Origin: Cellulophaga algicola DSM 14237
GTDB taxonomy: Bacteria > Bacteroidota > Bacteroidia > Flavobacteriales > Flavobacteriaceae
Direction of reading: 5' to 3'
Length of the DNA stretch: 64,000 nt
Assembly: GCF_000186265.1 (NCBI RefSeq)
Contig: NC_014934.1
Coordinates: 2,728,001 to 2,792,000, forward strand
Shown: piece after piece, positions 1-24,240 of the stretch
How positions within the stretch are numbered: the stretch's first letter is position 1
Layout of the letters: each line of letters begins with the position of its first letter
Notes under the pieces: generated by a model
Seen by the model: only the letters and a program-made list of their open reading frames with translations
Told to the model about the DNA's origin: nothing
The model's database searches: none
Program-made: the position numbers and the translations under genes

Positions 1-911
1 CTCAAGGTATTCAAGGCGAAACAGGTGACACTGGCGCTCAAGGTATTCAGGGAGAAACGGGTCCACAAGGATTAAAAGGAGATCAAGGTGATCAGGGAAT
101 CCAAGGTATTCAAGGAGAAACTGGTGATACTGGTGCTCAAGGAGTTCAAGGAGATCAAGGTGATCAGGGAATCCAAGGTATTCAAGGAGAAACTGGTGAT
201 ACTGGTGCTCAAGGAGTTCAAGGAGATCAAGGTGATCAGGGAATCCAAGGAATCCAAGGCGAAACAGGAGATACTGGTGCTCAGGGAATCCAAGGCGAAA
301 CAGGTGCTCAGGGAGTTCAAGGAGAAACTGGTCCACAAGGATTAAAAGGAGATCAAGGTGATCAGGGAATCCAAGGTATTCAAGGCGAAACAGGTGATAC
401 TGGTGCTCAAGGAGTTCAGGGAGAAACTGGTCCACAAGGATTAAAAGGAGATCAAGGAGATCAAGGAGATCAAGGAGATCAAGGAATTCAAGGAGAAACA
501 GGAGATACTGGTGCTCAGGGAGTTCAGGGAGAAACTGGTCCACAAGGAATAAAAGGAGATCAAGGTGATCAGGGAATCCAAGGAATCCAAGGAGAAACAG
601 GAGATACTGGCGCTCAAGGAGTTCAGGGAGAAATTGGTCCACAAGGATTAAAAGGAGATCAAGGTGATCAGGGAATTCAAGGTATTCAAGGAGAAACAGG
701 TGACACTGGTGCTCAAGGTATTCAGGGAGAAACTGGTCCACAAGGAATAAAAGGAGATCAAGGTGATCAAGGTATTCAGGGAGAAACTGGTCCACAAGGA
801 ATAAAAGGAGATCAAGGTGATCAAGGAATTCAAGGAGAAACAGGTGACACTGGTGCTCAAGGTATTCAGGGAGAAACTGGTCCTACAAGGAATAAAAGGA
901 GATCAAGGTGA
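1..911 (+). CDS. Collagen-like repeat surface protein, upstream segment (5' end outside window, frameshifted at its 3' end)
   Basis: Codons starting at base 3 read an uninterrupted series of Gly-X-Y triplets (GETGPQG, GDQGDQG, GIQGIQG, GDTGAQ) up to about base 881. The start lies left of the window. An extra T in the copy at 881-887 (GGTCCTACAAGG where all other copies have GGTCCACAAGG) shifts the frame, and reading then stops at TGA 909-911. The Gly-X-Y pattern resumes one frame over and continues to 1962, so this and the next entry are almost surely two halves of one gene. Collagen-like proteins of this kind in Flavobacteriaceae are secreted and probably form stalk or adhesin structures at the surface. 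Either the gene is broken here, the difference is reversible, or it is a sequence error. Confidence 0.75.
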
Positions 912-1260
912 TCAGGGAATCCAAGGTATTCAAGGAGAAACTGGTGATACTGGTGCTCAAGGAGTTCAGGGAGAAACTGGTCCACAAGGATTAAAAGGAG
1001 ATCAAGGTGATCAGGGAATCCAAGGTATTCAAGGCGAAACAGGTGATACTGGCGCTCAAGGAGTTCAAGGAGAAACTGGTCCACAAGGAATAAAAGGAGA
1101 TCAAGGTGATCAGGGAATCCAAGGTATTCAAGGAGAAACTGGTGATACTGGTGCTCAAGGAGTTCAGGGAGAAACTGGTCCACAAGGATTAAAAGGAGAT
1201 CAAGGTGATCAGGGAATCCAAGGTATTCAAGGCGAAACAGGTGACACTGGCGCACAAGGT
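1..1260 (+). repeat. Tandem 99-bp repeat array encoding 33-residue collagen-like units
   Basis: The word GGTCCACAAGG recurs at 60, 330, 429, 537, 636, 735, 789, (879), 979, 1078 and 1177. Typical spacing is 99 bp, equal to 11 Gly-X-Y triplets. Exceptions are 108, 54 and 90 bp, all multiples of nine and so in frame, plus one step of 100 bp (879 to 979) that marks the inserted base. Copies differ only by occasional third-base or single-residue changes, such as LK/IK and VQ/IQ. That degree of homogenisation suggests recent slippage or recombination between copies. The array continues past the left edge of the window. Confidence 0.9.
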
Positions 1261-1962
1261 CCAGCAGGACAAGATGGTCAACCAGGTCAGGCTGGTCAAG
1301 ACGGTGCTACTGGAGCACAAGGTTCTAGGGGGCAAGCAGGTCAAGATGGAGCTACAGGTTCACAAGGTCCAGCAGGACAAAATGGTCAGGATGGTCAAGA
1401 CGGAGCTACAGGTCCAGCAGGAGATCCAGCGACTGATGATCAAACTTTAAGTTTATCAGGTTCAGATTTGACTATTTCAGGTGGAAATACTATTGATATT
1501 AGTAGTATTAATACCGATGATCAATATGATGATGAAGTTTTATTACGTACACCGATTGATGTAGATGAAGGAGGAGAAACTTCACCAACAAATGAAACGA
1601 CAGTACAAGAAGTAATACAAGCAATAGCTCCAATTACATCTAAGGCGGCTAGAATTTTTTATCCACCTTCAATTGCAGTAGATGTATCTACAAATGGAAC
1701 ATTTACTATTGATTTGTATGATGAGTACATTCAGCAATATGGCTCTCCAACAGTAGGGAGTGCAGGTGCACCAAATGCATTGCCGACCTATACGAGAACA
1801 GAATTGTATTACTATGTTACGTATGCAGATCCAGCTGTTTTTGGTAACGGTACAGCAGTCTCAGGTATGTCTATTGATGCAAATGGTAATTTAACATATC
1901 AGGTTCAAAATCAGCCAACAAACTACAATTCATTAATCAACGTAGTTTTCGTAGTAAAATAA
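817..1962 (+). CDS. Collagen-like repeat surface protein, downstream segment with C-terminal domain
   Basis: An open frame begins at ATG 817, but its first 22 or so codons are an out-of-frame reading of the repeat. True Gly-X-Y coding starts right after the extra base near 884. Three and a half 33-residue units are followed by more varied collagen triplets (GPAGQDG, GATGAQG, GQNGQDG) to about residue 205. A spacer [17 protein letters not shown] follows; this motif is common behind collagen stretches in flavobacterial surface proteins. The last 130 residues form a predicted beta-rich domain rich in Tyr and Thr that ends FVVK. I see no obvious T9SS sorting signal. The gene lies 28 bp before the T9SS cargo gene at 1991, so the two may be cotranscribed. 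Confidence 0.7.
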
Positions 1963-1990: not shown

Positions 1991-4009
1991 TTGAAAGCAA
2001 TCAACACATATAAATTTTTATTCGCAATACTAATAGGGCTTTTATGTTCGAATTGGGCAAGTGCTCAGTTCCTACTACAAGCGCCGAATAGTACAGACGA
2101 AAACAATTATAAATGGTATAATGCCTCAGATACAAGTACCGTATTGAGTACCGATTTTTTCTATGAAGTGAGTCAGCCTGGTGTTTTTTTTGCAACCTAT
2201 GATGGTACTGCCTGTGGTAAGAATGCTACGAGTTATTTTATCCTAACAGATTGCGAATCGCCTAATAACGAGGTAACATTAGATATCACAGCAAATGTCC
2301 CAGTGGGTGCAAGTATAAGCTGGTCTCCGGCATTAACAGGAGATCAAATAGCACCTCAAATTACAGCGACTAAAGATGTCATTAAATATTTGGCAACATT
2401 AGTAAAAGCAGGTAATGCTAAAAATCTTCCGTCTTTTACGGTAGTTTGTATGAGTCAGGCTGCTAATTTAGTAGATGATGTCGCTACAGTAGACGAAGAC
2501 GCAACAGTAGATATCTCTATTTTTGATAATGATACAGAATTGCCCGTAGCAGGAACATTAACAACATCAGATCCTATAAATGGTACTATTTCAATTGATG
2601 ATAATGGTACCCCAAACAATCCTTCAGATGATATTGTAACTTATATTCCTGATCCAGATTTCAATGGCCAGGATACATTTACGTATACTATCTGTAATAC
2701 TTTTGGCGATTGTAGTACCGCTACGGTTACCGTAGATGTATTGCCTATTGTAGATACTTTTGATGATGTGGTGACCACAGAGGAAAACATGCCAATAAGT
2801 ATAGACAATTGGAGTGCAAACGATAATGATTTACCAACAGTAGGTACGCTTACCATAACGGTGCCAACCAATGGTGCTGTAGTTGTAGACGGTAATGGCA
2901 CGCCTAATGATCCTTTTGATGATATAATTACCTATACACCAAATACTGATTTTTCAGGGACAGATTCTTTTGACTACACCGTTTGTGATACGTTAGGGAA
3001 TTGTAGTACCGCTACCATTACTGTAATTACAACAGATCAAGTTGATTTAGATAGTGATGATGACGGAATTTTGGATGCATGGGAGGACTTGAATACCGAC
3101 AATGATAATAATCCGGCCACTAACCCAACAGATTCTGATGGAGATGGTATTGCAGATTATTTAGATATTGATAGTGATGATGATGGTATACCAGATAATG
3201 TAGAAGCACAAACTACATCAGATTATATTGCTCCTAGCGGAGAAGATGCTAATAACAATGGCTTAGATGATGCCTATGAGCAAGAGGGTAACTTGGGAAT
3301 AATTCCTGTAAATACAGATTTTGAAGATTTACCAGATTATTTAGATGATGATAGTGATAATGATAATGTGCCAGATTATATAGAAGCACACGATCATGAT
3401 CACGATGGTATTCCTGATGTTGTATTTATCGGTTCAGATAAAGATAATGATGGTTTAGATGATGGTTTTGAAGGCAATACAACTATAGATATTGACGTTA
3501 ATGATGAAGTAAACGATCCATGGGCAGATTTACCAAACACCGATGGTGACGATGAATCAGATTATAGAGATCCTGATGATGACGATGACGGTATTTTTAC
3601 AGCAGATGAAGATGTAAATCTTGATGGTAATTATGCTAATGATGATACAGATGGTAATGGAATACCAAACTATTTAGATCCCGATTTAGTAGTTTCTGGA
3701 GGAGAAGAAGTAGAAGTATTCAATGTGGTAACTCCAAACGGAGATGGGGTACATGATTACCTTACAATTACAGGGTTAGAAAACTTCCCGAACAATACTA
3801 TTAAAATTTATAATAGATGGGGTGTATTAGTGTTTGTAACTAAAGCGTATAACACACAAGGGAATGTTTTTACAGGAAGTTCTAATGGCCGTGTTACGGT
3901 ACAGAAAGATAATATGTTGCCAGTAGGTACGTATTTCTACATCTTAGACTATGCAAATGCAACAAATGATATGAAATCAAAATCAGGATATATTTATATA
4001 AACAGATAG
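1991..4009 (+). CDS. T9SS type B sorting domain surface protein with Ig-like and calcium-binding repeats
   Basis: Cell-surface or secreted protein of 672 residues, predicted to cross the outer membrane by type IX secretion. TTG 1991 is chosen as start because it gives MKAINTYKF and a clean signal peptide ending WASA. The body has two related cadherin/Ig-like repeats of about 95 residues (roughly 155-345, each with DNGTPN- or GNGTPN-like turns and FTYTICN/FDYTVCD strands). An Asp-rich stretch of thrombospondin type 3-like repeats follows (about 350-575; DSDDDGI, DSDGDGI), which should bind calcium. The last 90 residues (from [14 protein letters not shown] to GYIYINR) are the gliding-associated C-terminal domain, the type B sorting signal. 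It is followed after one base by the PorP/SprF gene, its likely partner. The binding target is unknown. Confidence 0.9.
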
Positions 4010-4010
4010 T

Positions 4011-4964
4011 ATGAAAACCTTAAATCTTAACACTTCTTATTGCAAATGGATTTTTGGCGTACTATGTTTAGTAGGCTTATTAAATACCACTAGTGTAATT
4101 GCACAACAAGATGCGCAGTATACACAATATATGTATAACACCATAAGTGTAAATCCAGGGTATGCGGGTTCTAGAGGAAATTTGAGTGTAGGTTTATTAC
4201 ATAGATCACAATGGTTAGGCTTAGATGGTGCACCAACTACGCAAACATTTAATATGCATTCTCCTATAGGGTACAGGGGAGTAGGCTTAGGGCTATCTAT
4301 TGTTAATGATAAAATTGGACCGACTTCAGAGACCAATTTTGATGTAGATTTTTCATATACAATTCCTGTTTCTGTAGCTGCAAAAATAAGTTTTGGACTA
4401 AAGGGAAGTGTAAATTTATTAGATATTAGATATTCAGAACTAAACCAATATGCTTCAGATCAATCTTTACAACAAGACATAAGTAATCGGTTGTCACCTA
4501 ATGTAGGTGCTGGGGTATACTACCATACCGATAAGTTTTATGCAGGTTTGTCTGTGCCTCGTATTTTAGAAACTTCTCACTTTGATGAATCTTCATTGTC
4601 TACTGCTAAGGAGCAAATGAACTTCTATTTTATTACAGGATATGTTTGGGATTTGAATCCTAACCTTAAATTTAAACCCACATTATTAACAAAGTTAGTA
4701 CGAGGTGCGCCTTTACAAGTAGATGCATCGGCTAACTTTATGCTTAGTGATAAGTTTATCTTAGGAGCTGCGTACCGTTGGAGTGCAGCAGTAAGTGGCA
4801 TGGCAGGTTTTTATGTTTCAGAAGGGTTTTTAATAGGTATTGCTTATGATCGTGAAACTACAGATTTAGGAAATACAAGTTTTAATGATGGCTCTTTTGA
4901 AATTGTTTTGAGATATGACTTCATTAAAACAAAAGGGAATATGAAATCGCCTAGATTCTTCTAA
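4011..4964 (+). CDS. PorP/SprF family type IX secretion system membrane protein
   Basis: Predicted outer-membrane beta-barrel of 317 residues. It has a signal peptide ending VIAQ and the family hallmark QDAQYTQYMYNTISVNPGYAGSR with SVGLLHRSQWLG close behind, then alternating strands to a C-terminal FEIVLRYDF. PorP in Porphyromonas and SprF in Flavobacterium belong to this family. SprF is needed specifically for secretion of the type B cargo SprB, and such genes commonly sit beside their cargo. Here ATG 4011 follows the stop of the cargo gene by one base, implying translational coupling, so I infer that this protein serves the product of the gene at 1991. Confidence 0.9.
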   Translation: MKTLNLNTSYCKWIFGVLCLVGLLNTTSVIAQQDAQYTQYMYNTISVNPGYAGSRGNLSVGLLHRSQWLGLDGAPTTQTFNMHSPIGYRGVGLGLSIVNDKIGPTSETNFDVDFSYTIPVSVAAKISFGLKGSVNLLDIRYSELNQYASDQSLQQDISNRLSPNVGAGVYYHTDKFYAGLSVPRILETSHFDESSLSTAKEQMNFYFITGYVWDLNPNLKFKPTLLTKLVRGAPLQVDASANFMLSDKFILGAAYRWSAAVSGMAGFYVSEGFLIGIAYDRETTDLGNTSFNDGSFEIVLRYDFIKTKGNMKSPRFF

Positions 4965-8261: not shown

Positions 8262-9524
8262 TTACATTTTGGAAGCTAATTCCATAAGATATGCACAAAG
8301 TAGGGCGCCACCTGTGCCAACGACATAACCAAATACAGCCAGTAAAACACCAACAGAGGTTAAGGATGAGTGAAACTCAGCAGCTACTACGGGAGCAGAT
8401 GCAGCGCCGCCTACATTAGCTTGGCTACCTACGGCTAAGAAAAAGTAGGGTGCTTTTATGAGTTTAGCGACTAAGATTAGTAATAAGGCATGTATGGTGA
8501 TCCATATAAAACCAACAACAAGTAGCCCTGGGTTTTCTAATATTTTAGTAAGATCCATCTTCATACCAATAGTAGCTACTAGAATATAAATAAAGATACT
8601 TCCTATTTTACTGGCACCTGCACCTTCATAATTTTTCGCTTTTGTAAAAGATAATAGTATTCCAGAAGCAGTAGCTATAACTACCATCCAAAAGAAATTA
8701 GAGCCTAAGAAAGACAGGAAATTACTTGGGTCTGCAACAGCACTGCTATTTTTAGTAAGATACTCACTTATGTTGTCTCCAAAATAATGAGATACTCCAA
8801 CAGCAGTAAATGCAAAACACAGCATCATCATATAATCATTTAACGTTGGTACACGCGTTATTTTTGCAGTAAAGGCACTTACCTTTACTTTCAAGGTTTC
8901 TATAGCAGACGTATCTGCTTTCAACCATTTATCAATAGCTTTTGTTTTTCCTACTCCAAATAAAATAACGGCCATCCATACATTAGCAACGACAATATCT
9001 ACCAGTACCATTTTGCCATATTCATCTGGATTGTATTTAAAAATTTCTAACATGGCAGCTTGGTTTGCACCGCCACCAATCCAACTACCTGCGATAGTAG
9101 AAAGTCCTCTCCAAATAGCATCAAAATCATTACCACCAACGGTTTCAGGAGAAAAAATAGAAACAAGTAAAATCGCTATAGGTCCGCCAATAATAATTCC
9201 GACAGAACCTGTTAAAAACATAATTAAGGCTTTAGAGCCTAAATTAGAGATGGCTTTAAGGTCTATACTTAAAGTCATTAAAACAAGGGCTGCTGGCAAA
9301 AGATACCTGCTAGCCATAAAATAAAGTTGTGAGATATCGTCTGAAATAATATGACAACTAGCTAAGATTGCAGGTAATAAATAACACATTAATACCGCAG
9401 GGACTATATTATAAAATTTACTCCAGAAACCTGTTGTCAATGAAGAGGTATAAAATATAAATCCAAGGCAAAGTGCTAATAATCCAAAAACAACTGCATC
9501 ATTCGTAATTAAAATTTCATTCAT
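8262..9524 (-). CDS. DUF819 family integral membrane protein
   Basis: The product has 420 residues and about ten to twelve hydrophobic helices, beginning MNEILITNDAVVFGLLALCLG. Family-like features are the polar SIDLKAI loop, GSWIGGGANQAAMLEIF (about residues 145-160) and a C-terminal VGSQANVGGAASAPVVAAEF, an inverted-repeat-like arrangement seen in carboxylate and sodium/proton transporters. DUF819 proteins (Bacillus YjcL type) are uncharacterised. A secondary transporter role is inference. It stands between a lipoprotein gene and a HAD phosphatase gene, 25 bp from the latter, all on the minus strand. Confidence 0.85.
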   Translation of the reverse strand: MNEILITNDAVVFGLLALCLGFIFYTSSLTTGFWSKFYNIVPAVLMCYLLPAILASCHIISDDISQLYFMASRYLLPAALVLMTLSIDLKAISNLGSKALIMFLTGSVGIIIGGPIAILLVSIFSPETVGGNDFDAIWRGLSTIAGSWIGGGANQAAMLEIFKYNPDEYGKMVLVDIVVANVWMAVILFGVGKTKAIDKWLKADTSAIETLKVKVSAFTAKITRVPTLNDYMMMLCFAFTAVGVSHYFGDNISEYLTKNSSAVADPSNFLSFLGSNFFWMVVIATASGILLSFTKAKNYEGAGASKIGSIFIYILVATIGMKMDLTKILENPGLLVVGFIWITIHALLLILVAKLIKAPYFFLAVGSQANVGGAASAPVVAAEFHSSLTSVGVLLAVFGYVVGTGGALLCAYLMELASKM

Positions 9525-12674: not shown

Positions 12675-12920
12675 TTATTGTGAAATAAATTGAAGTACCG
12701 CTGCTATCATTTTTGTTGAAATAGGATATTTAGGGTCAAAGTAACCCTCTAGACCTGTGACCTCAGTGTCTTCTTCTTTCATGATATGATTCATGTTAGG
12801 GATAATCATCAAAGATGCATTGGCTTGTGCGGCTTTTAAGTTTTGAGCGTTAGTAATATCAACTTGAATATCTTTATCTCCATTAAGGATGAGTATTGGA
12901 ATATGTAGTTTTTTTATACA
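12675..12920 (-). pseudogene. 3' remnant of an alpha/beta hydrolase gene
   Basis: The minus strand encodes about 77 residues ending at a TAA (12675-12677). The peptide has HIPILILNGDKDIQV, then NLKAAQANA, MIIPNMNHIMK and a C-terminal AAVLQFISQ. This is the acid-residue strand (Asp in NGDKD) and the catalytic-histidine loop (NMNHI) of a serine alpha/beta hydrolase, with the nucleophile half missing. Upstream the frame meets a TAG (12921-12923) right behind a run of seven T (seven A in coding sense) and then non-coding AT-rich sequence. No start codon or Ser-bearing elbow is present, so this is a decayed C-terminal fragment. It fills most of the 400-bp gap between the DUF5916 and penicillin-binding protein genes. 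Confidence 0.75.
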
Positions 12921-22824: not shown

Positions 22825-23499
22825 TTAGTCTTTAAAGTGCCAAAAAGGAATAGTGACTAAGGTGTCATTTTCTACTTTAGTACTATCTGCTGGCGGTGCT
22901 AAGATACGCAGGATATGTTTGCCTTCATTTAAATCTCGTATATTGAGGTAGGTTTCAAAACCTAGCCTTTTATGTTGGTCTGTGGAAATTACATATTCAC
23001 TTGAAAATAGGATGCTATCAATTTTAATCTGATATAAGCTTTCAAATGTTTTTAAATAGTCAAGTTCATTTTTATGATTTTCAAAACTTCCTCCAGATCC
23101 ATTCATTCCATTATTGAAATGCATCTTAAAACCTAGGTTAAAACCTCTCACATCTTCTTTAGGTTTAATCGAGGAGTTAATGTCGAATATTTGATCTTCC
23201 ATTTGTTTTTTGAATACAATGAATACTTTTAAATGGTTGTTTTTGATGACTTTGGAAGGAATCGATGCAGTTTCAATAAAATCATTACGATCTAAAAGTA
23301 GATCCTCATAATTATTTGGATTAGAATAGTTTTCCCAAGACTCCTCATTGTTTTTTAAATAATTAGATTGCTTAAAATTTAGTCCTCCTAATATACTTAT
23401 TACGGCATAAATGGGAATTAAAAAAAAGACAAGACGTTTTCCGAATTTATTATCTAAGAAATTATAGACCAGTGGTCTATATAAAAAGGATAGCGTCAA
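22825..23499 (-). pseudogene. C-terminal part of a membrane protein gene split by an in-frame TAG
   Basis: The reading frame (224 residues from a TTG at 23499) is the direct in-frame continuation of the gene that stops at 23512-23514. After the amber codon the frame goes on LFSYLTLSFLYRPLVYNFLDNKF in sequence order without any further break. It has one membrane helix (FFLIPIYAVISILGGL) and a soluble, probably periplasmic domain ending TIPFWHFKD. The combined gene (22825-24165) would encode 446 residues. If the TAG arose from TGG, as a tryptophan would fit the aromatic context, one point mutation inactivated the gene. The fragment could only be made by reinitiation. Confidence 0.8.
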
Positions 23500-23511
23500 A
23501 TAACTAAATAG

Positions 23512-24165
23512 CTAGTAAATAGGGAAGTAGATTTTAGCAATATATTTATTTTTCTTGAGTATTCCTTGACCAATAAAATCGATAAACACAATCAGCATAA
23601 GTAGGCAACAAATAAGTAAGATGGAAACTAGAGCTATTCCCACCGAAATATTATGCTGTATATCAAAATTTGTTGCGATTAGGATTATAATACCTGCTAA
23701 TAATGACATGATAATATATAATGCCAGCATGTAAAAGATGAGTAAAAAGGAAATAGCAAAAAGTACACTGCAATATTTCTCCAGTTGTCCTATATATTTG
23801 TCAAAAGAGCCTACATTTTTTTTTAAATAAGTAGTGAATTTTTCAGAATAGTTTAACGCCTTATAATCAATATCTCCTGAGACATAGCGCAAACCAACAG
23901 CGCCAATCCATAGTCCTCTTAAAATAACGTGTAAGACTAAATTAAATATTAAGATACCCCACATTACTTGAACCACAGACCAGATAATCCTCCAAGCTTC
24001 TATTTGACTGGCTTTGGCTGTTTCGTATAAAAGCTCCAAGGGCTCGTAGGCCAAAATCAAAGCATAAATGGCAAAACCTGAAATAATTAATTCTAATTGC
24101 CAACTTTCTTGCTGCAATTTGTCTAACCATCTTTTAAAGGAAGGGCTGCGATAATCGTTATTCAT
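23512..24165 (-). pseudogene. N-terminal part of a membrane protein gene split by an in-frame TAG
   Basis: The product has 217 residues from ATG 24165 (MNNDYRSPSFKRWLDKLQQESWQ). Longer readings to 24222 run into the htpG terminator hairpin and are rejected. About four membrane helices are visible, with a conserved-looking cytosolic stretch LRGLWIGAVGLRYVSGDIDYKAL. The stop TAG (23512-23514) follows KIYFPIY and is followed by in-frame coding sequence (previous entry). I know this family only as hypothetical in Flavobacteriia. Whether the short N-terminal product is still functional is unclear. Confidence 0.8.
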
Positions 24166-24207
24166 TGGTGTGGTTGTTTGCTGAAAGATACTAACTTTTC
24201 TAAAAAT

Positions 24208-24240
24208 AAAAAGCCGCTTCAAATAAATGAAGCGGCTTTT
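24208..24240 (-). terminator. Terminator of htpG
   Basis: The stem AAAAGCCGCTTCA / TGAAGCGGCTTTT is closed by a short A-rich loop. On the minus strand it is followed by TTTTTATTTTTA, 40 bases behind the htpG stop. Confidence 0.85.

Follow-up and report, generated by a model that had tools for sequence, protein, structure and literature searches.

The gene considered here lies at the left end of a 64,000-nucleotide stretch of the Cellulophaga algicola DSM 14237 genome (contig NC_014934.1, positions 2,728,001 to 2,792,000), hereafter the window; positions are given in window coordinates, negative ones lying upstream of it. The gene encodes a long collagen-like protein, referred to as the stalk, and its reading frame is broken by one extra T at position 884, inside a tandem array. 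On balance, we lean towards reading this T as a residual finishing error in the record of strain IC166T; that is, the base would be absent from the actual DNA, and the living strain probably has an unbroken gene. This explanation is favored because the site lies in an array that could not be polished with short reads, because the lesion is absent from the closed genomes of related species, and because selection on the coding sequence is intact. The probabilities that we attach to this and the other explanations are matters of judgement and were not computed.

The extra base and the reads behind it

The stalk gene starts 5,040 bases upstream of the window, at position 8960 of sequence L004, in the upstream flank that was also examined. 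It is about 7 kb long. A secreted-type N-terminus leads into a long stalk made of other repeats, which is followed by the collagen-like array and then the C-terminal part; the array, at 1.4 kb, makes up about one fifth of the whole. Its parts within the window are:

1..911, forward strand: 3'-terminal portion of the stalk gene's upstream reading frame; the frame starts at -5040 (L004 8960-14911) and encodes 1983 amino acids
1..1257, forward strand: Gly-X-Y collagen-like tandem array with GGTCCACAAGG-type copies; begins at -174, 1432 bases overall
879..890, forward strand: odd array copy GGTCCTACAAGG, from sequence comparison of the copies
884, forward strand: the additional T, missing from the other 12 copies of the array, from the same comparison
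909..911, forward strand: stop codon met by the upstream frame, from a frame scan
885..1962, forward strand: Gly-X-Y coding continued in the next frame, with the C-terminal part of the gene, from a frame scan
1588..1959, forward strand: conserved C-terminal domain (alignment A2), missing from the truncated product; no consistent Pfam, NCBIfam or PDB match

The array contains 13 copies of the motif GGTCC-ACAAGG between -174 and 1177. Inspection of the sequence confirms the extra T that the original prediction had located in the copy at 879-890, and this T is absent from all 12 other copies. Successive copies are spaced by 99, 135, 270, 99, 108, 99, 99, 54, 90, 100, 99 and 99 bases, and the value of 100, which runs from the odd copy to the next one, is the only spacing not divisible by 9. 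That prediction had also described a spacing of 99 bp on either side; this holds downstream but not upstream, where the spacings are 90 and 54, and copy spacing is irregular in general. The T stands alone between CC and A, outside any homopolymer, as had been noted. The possibility that the inserted base arose from a quasi-palindrome was assessed by eye, and the case for it was too weak.

Upstream of the extra base, glycine is in register at all 97 triplets from position 3 to 878, and the uninterrupted Gly-X-Y run that reaches the lesion comprises 118 triplets, the last of which holds the T. Beyond 884, this frame meets the stop at 909-911, and later ones at 945 and 1008. No stop interrupts the downstream frame between 805 and 1959, and its own stop lies at 1960-1962. 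Of the CAAGG/CAGGG motifs within positions 1-1260, 64/64 fall in one frame before 884 and 27/27 in the next frame after it, so the frame change is not a chance alignment. The frame scan therefore agrees with the predicted course of the two frames, one ending at 909-911 and the other resuming Gly-X-Y coding until 1962, and the protein is, as recorded, indeed truncated, at 1983 residues and with loss of the conserved C-terminal domain. A Pfam search of the stalk protein returned Collagen only (PF01391; 174.8 and 106.8 bits in the two frames, cut-off 27.2); on this match and the uninterrupted Gly-X-Y run, the stalk is predicted to be a collagen-like protein.

The genome of C. algicola IC166T was obtained with 454 GS FLX Titanium and Illumina GAii sequencing, the latter yielding 710 Mb in 20,331,123 reads, which were used to correct base errors via Polisher (PMC3072087). 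Dividing the yield by the number of reads gives a read length of about 35 bases. At this length the array is highly redundant: 798 of its 1,398 35-mers occur at least twice, compared with 0 of 8,866 in positions 1-8900 of L004. Around the site, exact matches extend 56 bases to the left and 30 to the right in the copy at 735, and 14 to the left and 162 to the right in the copy at 1078. A 35-base read lacking the T can span the site in 34 positions, and in every one of them it matches one or the other of these two copies perfectly; reads of about 35 bases could therefore hardly have exposed a false T. Such a T would have entered at finishing, inside the array, where polishing reads of this length cannot be placed. 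The earlier argument that the lack of a homopolymer makes a read-length error less likely thus stands for the usual 454 error; it does not weaken the case for a finishing error in an array whose reads are unplaceable.

The gene in relatives and the age of the lesion

The gene was compared across the six other closed Cellulophaga genomes (G002, G005, G010, G011, G014 and G015; one genome per species). Every one of them carries it in a single unbroken frame, of 1739, 2454, 2740, 3203, 3293 or 3625 codons. The N-terminal motif is matched in five, and the N-terminus of the sixth, G014, aligns at 74%. Gly-X-Y runs of 112, 124, 159 and 274 triplets, 669 in total and all uninterrupted, are found in four genomes, and none in the other two. 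The two ends of the gene are thus retained, and the stalk between them turns over in length and Gly-X-Y content. The 11 draft Cellulophaga assemblies do not extend through the gene; all fail inside it, 10 at a contig end and one at an N gap.

A scan of named genomes yielded 198 relatives, of which 80 were kept as loci (L056-L135). Walking upstream from the C-terminal domain met a stop in 21 of the 80: a normal start is reached in nine, N runs interrupt seven, three encode short proteins that have a start of their own, and two are broken without an N gap. The latter, L103 (in-frame stop) and L131 (frame change), are homologues of the stalk gene in metagenome bins of other genera, and are the sole other breaks seen; both bins derive from short reads, and both breaks lie outside any collagen array.

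The segment severed by the lesion was assessed through the ratio of nonsynonymous to synonymous substitution rates (dN/dS). Over the last 119 codons, the comparison with C. baltica gives a ratio of 0.012, those with G005 and G010 each give 0.017, and that with G011 gives 0.024, with dS between 0.63 and 1.10; since C. baltica and G005 hardly differ from one another, they count as one comparison. The frame is also free of further stops for 350 codons after the lesion. Judged by these values, purifying selection on the severed segment is strong, as strong as in the intact relatives, and the lesion is accordingly either very recent or not real. An old, decaying pseudogene would account for the loss of frame in the record, but it is rejected by these same ratios, which reveal no relaxed selection beyond the lesion, and by the stop-free frame; we give this explanation practically no weight.

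The surroundings were examined gene by gene over up to 178 kb, with genes below 60% identity dropped before counting. Full-length genes in one frame, without inner stops, make up 84 of 91 against G005, 54 of 59 against G010 and 43 of 45 against G011. The stalk gene is the only one found in two frames over this distance against the three relatives; against G011 it falls under the 60% cut, and a separate alignment still shows the two frames. Genome-wide insertion and deletion noise is rejected as the cause for this region, because nearly all matched genes are full-length and in one frame. Among the other non-intact cases, three have a stop in their first 25 codons (44633, 72266-73390 and 149869-151257) and appear to be starts called too far upstream; in another, at 93765-95384, the stop precedes the normal end by two codons, and one gene runs off the edge of the compared stretch. 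Collinearity with G010 is lost after the window, 3 of the 85 open reading frames of that genome matching in the next 100 kb.

Three other genes look damaged. The large surface-protein gene next upstream (L004 3954-8603; -10046 to -5397) contains an in-frame TAA at L004 6903-6905, aligned to Gln in G010 and G011, in a sequence without repeated 35-mers; its dN/dS against G010 is 0.17 for the 196 codons preceding the stop and 0.39 for the 362 codons that follow, values that do not decide the age of that stop. On the reverse strand, the gene at 22828-24222 has an inner stop where G010 has Trp and is a possible pseudogene. Also on the reverse strand, 12678-12917 is the remnant of a 308-residue gene that is present in G005, G010 and also G016.

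Weighing a finishing error against a real mutation

Several observations speak against a finishing error. The T is not in a homopolymer, and so it is not a typical 454 error. The stated error rate for C. algicola is below 1 in 100,000, the project was finished by hand, and 122 pseudogenes (2.8%) were reported (PMC3072087). A T contained in no read would leave its own 35-mers without support, which could have been noticed. C. lytica (G002) was sequenced on the same platforms and with the same polishing tool, and its 112-triplet array is in frame. Lastly, the stop in the neighboring surface gene lies in unrepeated sequence, and real lesions do occur here. The C. lytica project had 1,605x Illumina coverage, compared with 146x for C. 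algicola, as well as 238 additional reactions, and listed 19 pseudogenes; decay or finishing quality could both contribute to the two different pseudogene counts.

A real frameshift that arose very recently and is fixed or common in the culture stock used for sequencing is accordingly a serious alternative, albeit one we consider less probable. It would truncate the stalk and remove the C-terminal domain, as a strain-level loss of function perhaps incurred through laboratory passage. The excess of pseudogenes over C. lytica fits this explanation, as do the two adjacent surface genes with one lesion each and the position of T884 outside homopolymers, and strong selection downstream is as compatible with a recent event as with an error. 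Moreover, the three other genes that look damaged indicate that real loss of function is not rare in this genome, which keeps this alternative alive. What counts against it is that the lesion lies inside the array, exactly where short reads are unplaceable, and that no closed genome of the genus other than this one shows such a break (0 of 6).

The original prediction further proposed that the frameshifted unit is gained or lost by recombination with correct copies, such that display of the stalk is turned off and on. Exact repeats of up to 162 bases, at a spacing of 198 bases, begin right after the odd base; given such flanking repeats, recombination could in principle remove the odd copy, and the array does vary in length between genomes. 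However, this proposal found no support in the comparison: the gene is in frame in all six other closed genomes, the Gly-X-Y runs of four of them are uninterrupted, the data contain no second allele, and neither a short repeat nor a homopolymer, the hallmark of a slippage-prone Scl2-type contingency locus, is present at 884. The breaks in L103 and L131 do not help either, since they come from short-read bins and are not in a collagen array. We therefore regard a reversible switch as improbable, and similarly improbable is the specific form in which the T is real and polymorphic and a collagen stalk linked to the type IX secretion system (T9SS) would be shown or hidden via homologous recombination among long repeats, rather than by short-tract slippage.

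It is also conceivable, if very improbable, that ribosomes shift by +1 within the overlap of the two frames at 805-908, and thus make the full-length protein. The frames overlap without a stop for about 100 bases and selection downstream is still strong, but no relative has overlapping frames at this point, the six closed relatives being read in one frame, and no known shift signal was recognized by eye, a prfB-type site not having been searched for. The frameshift is, in sum, ordinary in kind, and a finishing error remains the explanation that we favor.

A conserved three-gene surface locus

Two genes follow the stalk gene directly in the window:

1991..4009, forward strand: T9SS type-B sorting-domain protein (CHU_C / TIGR04131) with Big_9 domains, the next gene, from domain searches
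4011..4964, forward strand: outer-membrane protein of the PorP/SprF family, the last gene in the conserved trio, from domain searches

This order is not peculiar to C. algicola. The C-terminal domain of the stalk protein is present in 25 of the 60 relatives searched. Each of 18 Cellulophaga genomes has a single copy of it, and in 77 of the 80 named loci it is followed by a type-B sorting-domain gene and then by PorP/SprF; L088, L120 and L130 are without both. The stalk gene, the type-B protein and PorP/SprF are thus a conserved trio, in which the stalk may be collagen-like or not, while both of its ends are conserved.

The nearest described systems are pairs of the SprB-SprF type (PMC12618676, PMC9143113). 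By domain content, the two genes after the stalk gene form such a pair, like SprB-SprF and Fjoh_3952-Fjoh_3951. The shuttle of Flavobacterium johnsoniae is encoded directly downstream of its type-B protein (PMC12618676), and PorP-like proteins have been proposed as anchors of type-B proteins (PMC9143113). The C. algicola locus differs in having a further gene upstream of the pair, and the conserved C-terminal domain of its product gave no match to T9SS sorting-domain models: CHU_C / TIGR04131 was found neither in the stalk protein nor in 37 C-terminal domains at expectation values (E) of up to 1. With a type-B and PorP/SprF pair adjoining the stalk gene at 1991-4964, T9SS-dependent secretion is putative, and the stalk protein would be displayed on the cell surface via these two neighbors. 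Literature searches, which covered open-licence papers, returned no account of the trio.

The C-terminal domain itself has no consistent match to an established family. Searches of its 37 members against Pfam and NCBIfam gave scattered weak matches, with any one family hitting at most 3 members; the best values were E = 0.0005, for a phage structural family matched by 2 members, and E = 0.0019, for phage tail tube, matched by 1, and the best match among PDB sequences had E = 0.57. An AlphaFold2 model (predicted local distance difference test score, pLDDT, 84.9; predicted template-modeling score, pTM, 0.71) retrieved nothing in Foldseek at E of 0.001 or below, the best values being 0.36 (PDB) and 0.029 (viral models), and reached a best Z of 4.5 in VIA-align. 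A phage-fibre fold is a recurring hint below significance, and no fold is claimed.

Two collagen-like proteins of other bacteria invite comparison. Scl2/SclB of Streptococcus pyogenes is phase-variable, and resembles the stalk in that it is a surface protein of Gly-X-Y type that can lose its frame, leaving a truncated product without its anchor (PMC3022705). In C. algicola, by contrast, the change is a single base far inside the array, no short repeat accompanies it, and the two proteins belong to unrelated secretion settings. Lcl (LPG2644) of Legionella is likewise a collagen-like gene with an in-frame tandem array, of 19 copies of 45 bases, and the word frameshift is absent from the paper on it (PMC2639597). 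The Lcl family, NF046116, is the top-scoring NCBIfam family for the upstream frame in C. algicola, at 302.7 bits, which is under the cut-off of 500 bits.

Taken together, the trio is a three-gene surface system that is widespread in the family Flavobacteriaceae, and its stalks are under-recorded, since none of the 11 draft Cellulophaga genomes examined is assembled through the stalk gene. If the extra base were both real and switchable, long repeats would provide on/off control of a collagen stalk. If it is an error, as we favor, a core surface gene of the type strain has been wrongly recorded as truncated, and studies of adhesion and gliding in C. algicola would be affected.
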